Below, one piece after another: positions 20,988 through 22,859 of a stretch of 64,000 nt of DNA. Source of the stretch: Cycloclasticus sp. symbiont of Poecilosclerida sp. M. Lineage in GTDB: Bacteria > Pseudomonadota > Gammaproteobacteria > Methylococcales > Cycloclasticaceae. A program made the position numbers and the translations under genes. The notes under the pieces were generated by a model. The model searched no databases and was not told where the DNA came from. It saw only the letters and a program-made list of their open reading frames with translations. The stretch spans positions 25,093-89,092 of the forward strand of contig LWTN01000243.1 in the NCBI GenBank assembly GCA_002101225.1. The letters run 5' to 3'. Within the stretch, counting starts at the first letter, position 1. Each line of letters starts with the position of its first letter.

Positions 20988-21102
20988 GGTGACTTATGTC
21001 GGTCCCCTCGCAATGTGAAGTTGTGAATCCCGCCAGGCCCGAAAGGGAGCAACGGCAGCAGCGGAATTGTGTGCTGGGTGTGGCTGGCATGAGTTACCAC
21101 CC
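20988..21102 (+). ncRNA. ffs: 4.5S signal recognition particle RNA
   Basis: The conserved SRP tip GCCAGGCCCGAAAGGGAGCA, followed by ACGGCAGC, contains the GGAA-like tetraloop region and the Ffh-binding internal loops. The ends pair along their length: GGTGACTTATGTCGGTC (20988 on) with GGCTGGCATGAGTTACC (ending 21099), allowing G-U pairs. Size is about 112-115 nt. Its position directly ahead of dnaX is conserved in Gammaproteobacteria. Exact ends are estimated from pairing. Confidence 0.92.
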
Positions 21103-21170: not shown

Positions 21171-22859
21171 ATGAGTTATAAAGTCTTCGCAAGAAAATGG
21201 CGGCCACTTAATTTTGCCCAATTAGTTGGGCAAGAACACGTTGTGCGCTCGCTCGTTAATGCGTTGGAACATGATCGTCTGCATCATGCCTATCTATTTA
21301 GCGGGACCCGAGGCGTCGGGAAAACAACGATTGCTAGGGTGTTAGCTAAGGCGCTTAATTGTGCCGATAAAGTAGGTGCAGAGCCGTGTGGAAAATGCCA
21401 AACGTGTTTAGAGATTGACCAAGGCTACTACCCCGATTTAATCGAGGTAGACGCGGCCTCAAGAACGGGTGTTGACGATACGCGTGAATTGCTTGAAAAC
21501 GTTCAATACGCACCGAGCAGGGGTAAATACAAAGTCTATTTAATAGACGAGGTTCATATGTTTTCAAAAAGCAGCTTTAATGCGCTGCTGAAAACACTCG
21601 AAGAGCCTCCTGAACACGTTAAGTTTTTATTGGCAACGACCGATCCGCAAAAGATGCCTGTCACCGTCTTGTCACGTTGCTTGCAATTCAACCTTAAGCG
21701 CTTGTTGCCAGAGCAAATAGAAGGCCAGTTTAAGCTTATTTTAGAAAGCGAAGGCATAGATTATCAAGCTGAGGCAACTGTGCTCTTAGCTCGTGCGGCC
21801 GACGGCAGTATGCGCGATGGTTTGAGTTTATTAGATCAAGCGATTGTCTTTGGAAATGGTGTGCTCAAAGAAGAAGACGTTATTAATATGCTAGGCAGTG
21901 TTGCGCGTGAACCTATATTAGACATACTGACTGCGCTGGCCAGCATGGATGGAAAAACGGTTTTGGATAGCGTTCAGGAATTGGATCAGTTTGCGCCAGA
22001 CTATGCAGAGGTCTTACAAAGCCTATTAACTTACTTACATAAAATTTCGGTTGCGCAGGTCGTGCCGGATGCTGAAACCGATTCTTCTATAGAGCAGCTA
22101 GTTGAAAAATTAAGCAAAGAAGACGTGCAACTATTTTATCAAATTGGCTTGGTAGGCCAGAAAGATTTATCTTTGGCACCCAACCCAAAAGTCGGTTTTG
22201 AGATGGTGCTGTTGCGCATGGTGACGTTTTCACCTAGTCAAAGTGGGGAGGTTAAAGCTGTACCTTCATCTCTAGAGGCACAGCCACAAACGCAACAGGT
22301 GAATCAGTCCGCAACCACCTCTGTTACGAAGGCACCAAGAATAACAATCCCAGAAAAAAAAGCACCTGATAACCTCAGCCTAGTCACAGAAGATAAAAAA
22401 AAAGATAAGCCAGCGGCCGAAGTAGATACGAAAGCCACAAAGGTTTCAGTGCCTATTAAAGAAGAGCTGAAATCTACCGTAGAAGTTGTTTGGTCTGAAT
22501 TGCTTCCCTTGCTTGCGTTAGACCCTATGACGATGCAATTGGCTAAAAATTCCGCCTTAGTCCGCATAGATGAAAATGAATGTGAATTGTTATTAGCGAA
22601 GGGGCACGTGTCACTAAATGAAAAGTCAGAACAGCGCTTAGAAGCGGCTTTGTCGGATTATTTTGCTAGAAAATTAAAATTAGTTTTTAGGCAAGACGAA
22701 GAAGGCGTTGTAACACCGAATGCTATAGAAGATAAAAAACAACTTGCGCGACAACAAAAGGCAGAGCAAGAAGTAAGGAGCAACAAAACAGTTAACAAGA
22801 TAATTGAGATGTTTGACGCTAAAATAATTGAAGGCTCGATAAAGCCTATTGATAAATAG
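21171..22859 (+). CDS. dnaX: DNA polymerase III subunits tau/gamma
   Basis: Tau/gamma is the motor of the clamp loader. The 562-residue product has Walker [10 protein letters not shown] (near 46), a four-Cys zinc module ([16 protein letters not shown]), the DEVH Walker B and AAA+ sensor motifs (SRCLQFNLK) in the first ~370 residues. A low-complexity linker and a tau-specific C-terminal domain (from about 440) follow. An A9 run at 22395 allows a -1 slip to AGA TAA, which would give a gamma form of about 412 residues. dnaX-ybaB-recR is the standard order. Confidence 0.97.
22395..22408 (+). promoter_or_regulatory. Candidate dnaX slippage site (A9, immediate -1 stop)
   Basis: Nine A residues encode Lys409-411 (GAT AAA AAA AAA GAT AAG). 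In the -1 frame the run is followed by AGA TAA, a stop one codon later. This is the architecture by which other dnaX genes make gamma, through ribosomal frameshifting in E. coli and transcript slippage in Thermus. Confidence 0.65.

Follow-up and report, generated by a model that had tools for sequence, protein, structure and literature searches.

The dnaX gene of a Cycloclasticus sp. symbiont of Poecilosclerida sp. M carries two runs of A in its sense strand, which raises the question of whether, and by which route, a short gamma subunit is produced from it beside full-length tau. The stretch of contig LWTN01000243.1 which was analysed, called the window in the following, comprises 64,000 nucleotides, and all positions refer to it. 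E. coli produces gamma by -1 ribosomal frameshifting on A_AAA_AAG, and in Caulobacter crescentus gamma is obtained by proteolysis of tau (PMC5009743). Slippage on the dnaX transcript has been demonstrated in Thermus; the work on Thermus thermophilus (Larsen et al. 2000) is described in PMC1088944 and PMC5009743, and, according to the former, the gene contains nine As and gamma results from any length of the run other than 9+3n. As judged from sequence comparisons, the A runs of dnaX in the window are probably sites of slippage, by RNA polymerase or by the ribosome, from which a short gamma results beside full-length tau. A search of the open literature found no paper covering both Cycloclasticus and dnaX.

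The dnaX gene

The gene extends from 21171 to 22859 (+) and encodes a tau subunit of 562 amino acids, as indicated by the open reading frame, by matches to PF13177, PF22608, PF12169 and PF12170, and by TIGR02397 with 425 bits. Domains I–III, which are common to gamma and tau (residues 20–353, from Pfam matches), correspond to positions 21228–22229 (+), and domain V, which occurs in tau only and is missing from gamma (residues 440–557; PF12170, E = 2e-13), to positions 22488–22841 (+). Both A runs are located in the linker between these two parts, about 70% along the gene. Tau is encoded in a single open frame of 562 codons; a two-ORF arrangement of dnaX was not encountered in the window.

The A9 run at position 22395

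A sequence-only reading of this DNA had pointed to nine As encoding Lys409–411 in a dnaX gene of 562 codons, and the run is present at 22395–22403 (+) as AAA AAA AAA (codons 409–411). Its prediction for a -1 slip was also correct on translation: the product ends with ...DKKKR, followed by TAA at 22406–22408 (+), and has 412 amino acids with one inserted A. The +1 frame is closed by TAG at 22423–22425 (+), with products of 417–418 amino acids; the stops are at codon 2 (-1) and codon 8 (+1).

The comparison covered dnaX of 15 other Cycloclasticus genomes in which the linker is complete, with proteins 65–73% identical to that of the window; G014 (88% identical over residues 1–135) was left out, its assembly being devoid of the dnaX linker. 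Conservation of the run in relatives, which had been proposed as a check, did not hold: no counterpart was found at this position in the 15 genomes, and the A9 was ruled out as the conserved site. One relative (L023) possesses an A9 further downstream.

Taken alone, the A9 would point only weakly beyond chance. Since 72% of the Lys codons in this dnaX are AAA, a KKK stretch has a chance of about 37% of being written as A9. The genome of 2.32 Mb contains about 48 runs of at least nine A or T (after grouping), and 12 of 46 examined were in sense orientation within ORFs of at least 100 amino acids, although some of these ORFs are probably spurious. With about a dozen other ORFs of this kind, a lone A9 is therefore unremarkable. 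These numbers form the basis of one alternative explanation, namely that the runs reflect Lys-rich and A-rich codon usage without a programmed role, with any slippage products being noise; it would fit the run at 22395 by itself. In the lineage of the window, that run may have been gained as an additional site or as a substitute.

A conserved run 33 nt upstream

The element which is conserved in the genus is a different one, not flagged by the sequence-only reading, whose site is not supported as the conserved one. An A8 run at 22354–22361 (+), 33 nt upstream of the A9 in the same linker, belongs to codons 395–397 (GAA AAA AAA) in the context CCA GAA AAA AAA GCA CCT GAT. From sequence, alignment and codon identity it is the homologue of longer runs in the relatives, which have G-A9 (14 of 15) or A10 (one of 15) at the aligned site. 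The -1 frame reads AGC ACC TGA, with the stop at 22367–22369 (+) as third codon and a gamma of 399 amino acids when one A is inserted; the +1 frame ends with TAG at 22381–22383 (+), the eighth codon, with products of 403–404 amino acids. Every insertion or deletion of 1–2 nt at the A8 or the A9 gives a product of 398–418 amino acids, so that, due to the close stops in both shifted frames, any such slip would result in gamma.

In the genus alignment the conserved run sits in a PEKK motif, and the remainder of the linker is variable. Codons 395–397 are GAA AAA AAA in all 16 aligned genes, each of which also has the -1 stop as third codon after the run and the +1 stop at most nine codons away, although these counts are not independent, since the members of a genus have common ancestry. 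In the relative with A10, the extra A and a lost base offset each other, and the -1 stop stays third. Synonymous sites elsewhere in dnaX have changed freely among the members of the genus; among 259 invariant amino-acid columns (Met and Trp left out), one codon is used throughout in only eight, and codons 395–397 are among these eight. The conservation of the run goes well beyond chance, and the A8 at 22354 is most likely the ancestral slippage site. Directly behind the two Lys codons, the window has GCA (Ala) versus ACA or ACT (Thr) in most relatives, and this difference shortens the run to A8.

Identical codons in 16 genes and a fixed -1 stop argue against an origin from codon usage. They also bear on another alternative, in which gamma is cleaved from tau by a protease and the A runs are incidental; although Caulobacter crescentus provides a precedent (PMC5009743), this process would leave a conserved nucleotide run and stops in shifted frames unexplained, and it is considered very improbable.

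Runs of A in dnaX of gammaproteobacterial families

A survey was carried out with one dnaX per family from 140 class-level genomes, of which 122 were usable; expected counts were derived from 500 shuffles, in which synonymous codons were rearranged within each gene. Runs of at least nine As in the linker were seen in 17 families versus 6.3 ± 1.8 expected, the maximum of the shuffles being 13, and A8 runs in eight versus 4.5 expected. No excess was detected in the 122 families for A7 runs in the linker (6 seen, 9.1 expected), for runs of at least nine As in domains I–III (1 versus 0.4), or for such runs in the C-terminal 125 codons (0 versus 0.1). For 15 of the 17 long linker runs, each of the two shifted frames has a stop within 12 codons, compared to 2.7 ± 1.3 such runs expected. 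Two of the 17 genes are GC-rich (third-position GC of 0.82 and 0.87).

The survey suggests that roughly one gammaproteobacterial family in eight possesses an arrangement resembling that of Thermus, with at least nine As and stops in both frames. Enrichment in the linker only, and the paired stops across families, argue further against mere codon usage, as does a gene of another family with domain V out of frame behind its A9 (L184, see below); an origin from codon usage appears rather improbable.

Transcript slippage or ribosomal frameshifting

The main rival would be -1 ribosomal frameshifting on A_AAA_AAA in one or both runs, without a strong stimulator. This heptamer is in frame in both runs, the -1 stop is the nearer and better conserved one (third codon, 16 of 16), and E. 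coli dnaX with A_AAA_AAG is a precedent (PMC5009743). However, ribosomes of E. coli shift less readily on A_AAA_AAA than on A_AAA_AAG (PMC5009743), and the latter heptamer was not found in frame at the sites of the window, where A_AAA_AAA is followed by the G of the next codon. The runs are also nine long, not seven, and a close +1 stop is retained as well.

A Shine-Dalgarno-like stretch about 10 nt upstream of the A8 or the A9 was not detected, and none is conserved in the relatives. Duplex energies were -0.7 (A8) and -1.6 kcal/mol (A9), versus -7.4 for E. coli and a mean of -3.2 kcal/mol for the window gene; the power of this test is modest, since the E. coli value lies close to the 5th percentile in the background of the window gene. 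For the A9, the sequence-only reading had likewise noted no obvious stimulator of this kind just upstream. Folding of the downstream region gave z = 0.4 (A8) and z = -2.1 (A9), but the E. coli positive control itself reached only z = 0.1; the test is therefore devoid of power, and folding was dropped as a criterion. The phase of the runs was also discarded as evidence for transcript slippage, because a slippery heptamer can be placed in frame, in one register or another, within any run of at least seven As.

Frameshifting of the E. coli type requires a heptamer, stimulators and a single stop. Slippage on the transcript adds or removes As and reaches both frames, and is therefore expected to favour long runs as well as stops in both frames. 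For seven A_AAA_AAG sites from the surveys, chosen for a -1 stop within four codons, the median distance to the +1 stop was 25 codons, compared to 7 codons for the A9 group (p = 0.0005, one-sided Mann-Whitney test); these seven are a small and selected sample. The window and its relatives fit transcript slippage better, in view of the lack of a conserved Shine-Dalgarno stimulator, of an enrichment which concerns runs of at least nine As and not those of seven, and of the stops in both frames. Gamma by frameshifting alone is regarded as unlikely, although frameshifting on A_AAA_AAA and slippage on the transcript may both contribute.

The preferred explanation, which we hold to be fairly likely, is transcript slippage of the Thermus type at tandem A8 and A9 sites. 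The signal would consist of two pieces, the conserved A8 at 22354–22361 and the lineage-specific A9 at 22395–22403, on both of which RNA polymerase would add or drop As. Tau would be translated from transcripts whose runs have their templated length or depart from it by a multiple of three, and the other variants of 1–2 nt would reach a stop within about eight codons in either frame, resulting in a gamma of 398–418 residues. Counterpoints are that the conserved run is only A8 in the window, one A short of the run on which slippage is known in Thermus, and that the A9 is not conserved. The occurrence of slippage, its mainly transcriptional nature and the participation of both runs are inferred. 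The general proposal of the earlier reading, gamma by slippage, with the transcript favoured over frameshifting of the E. coli type, is thus upheld, since poly-A is kept in the linker within the genus and enriched across families, stops are found in both frames, and no Shine-Dalgarno sequence is conserved; its site at 22395 is not supported as the conserved one.

Comparison with known systems

In Thermus-type dnaX, gamma is formed about 1:1 with tau. The window shares with Thermus thermophilus a sense-strand run of nine As in dnaX, here in the linker, a tau read in the zero frame, nearby stops in both other frames, and a shorter gamma, which is predicted in the window. It differs by possessing two runs, A8 and A9, 33 nt apart, by a conserved run of A8 instead of A9, and by their location about 70% along the gene versus seven-eighths in Thermus. 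With E. coli dnaX it has in common a site between the gamma and the tau-only parts, a nearby -1 stop and a short gamma (again predicted); differences are the A_AAA_AAA within longer runs instead of A_AAA_AAG, the lack of a conserved Shine-Dalgarno stimulator, and the additional close +1 stop.

Two-ORF dnaX genes were known earlier from other bacteria (PMC3711429). They resemble the window by a poly-A run at the junction of gamma and tau; however, their tau needs a frame transition, whereas tau of the window is the zero-frame product. In one further gammaproteobacterial family (L184, G236:C167:42720-45165), an A9 is followed immediately by a zero-frame stop, giving a gamma of 379 amino acids, while the -1 frame encodes an intact domain V (PF12170, E = 5.9e-16), so that tau of this organism would need slippage or frameshifting.

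Slippage on poly-A in dnaX transcripts could be a common route to gamma in the class of E. coli, one that would have arisen repeatedly at different positions and phases, with the Cycloclasticus of the window in the course of site turnover: a change from a Thr to an Ala codon would have cut the ancestral A9 to A8, and 33 nt downstream another A9, again followed by stops in both frames, would have arisen anew. This combined view is tentative and somewhat doubtful. If transcript data confirm the pattern seen in the survey, related bacteria would reach the same outcome, gamma and tau, via different decoding steps, and the different routes would support the notion that gamma is useful to these bacteria. 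Stops in both frames versus a -1 stop only would be a simple sequence test for separating transcript slippage from frameshifting.

Other observations

A second gene with two frames was seen in L236 (G143:C5:76527-79017), where a zero-frame stop comes directly after A11 and the -1 frame, which is long, resembles the tail of tau; this second frame had no Pfam match, and a two-ORF dnaX is claimed for L184 only. In G003 (Cycloclasticus sp. DC_out13; L025/L050), A11 with a zero-frame stop was found at the conserved site. It was not counted, because the contig extends for only about 20 nt beyond this point and TAG is present in the tau frame, too; this run may be an assembly artefact. As in the window, second runs of A8 or A9 are present elsewhere in the linker of Cycloclasticus L014, L017, L023 and L010. 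Exact A9 runs in the linker, with stops in both shifted frames, were seen at codon 395 of L152 (third-position GC 0.87) and at codon 377 of L238 (0.82). Directly upstream of dnaX in the window, a gene for a bacterial small SRP RNA is located at 20997–21092 (+) (Rfam RF00169, 59.1 bits); downstream there is a gene of the ybaB family, and the ORF beside it reads as recR.
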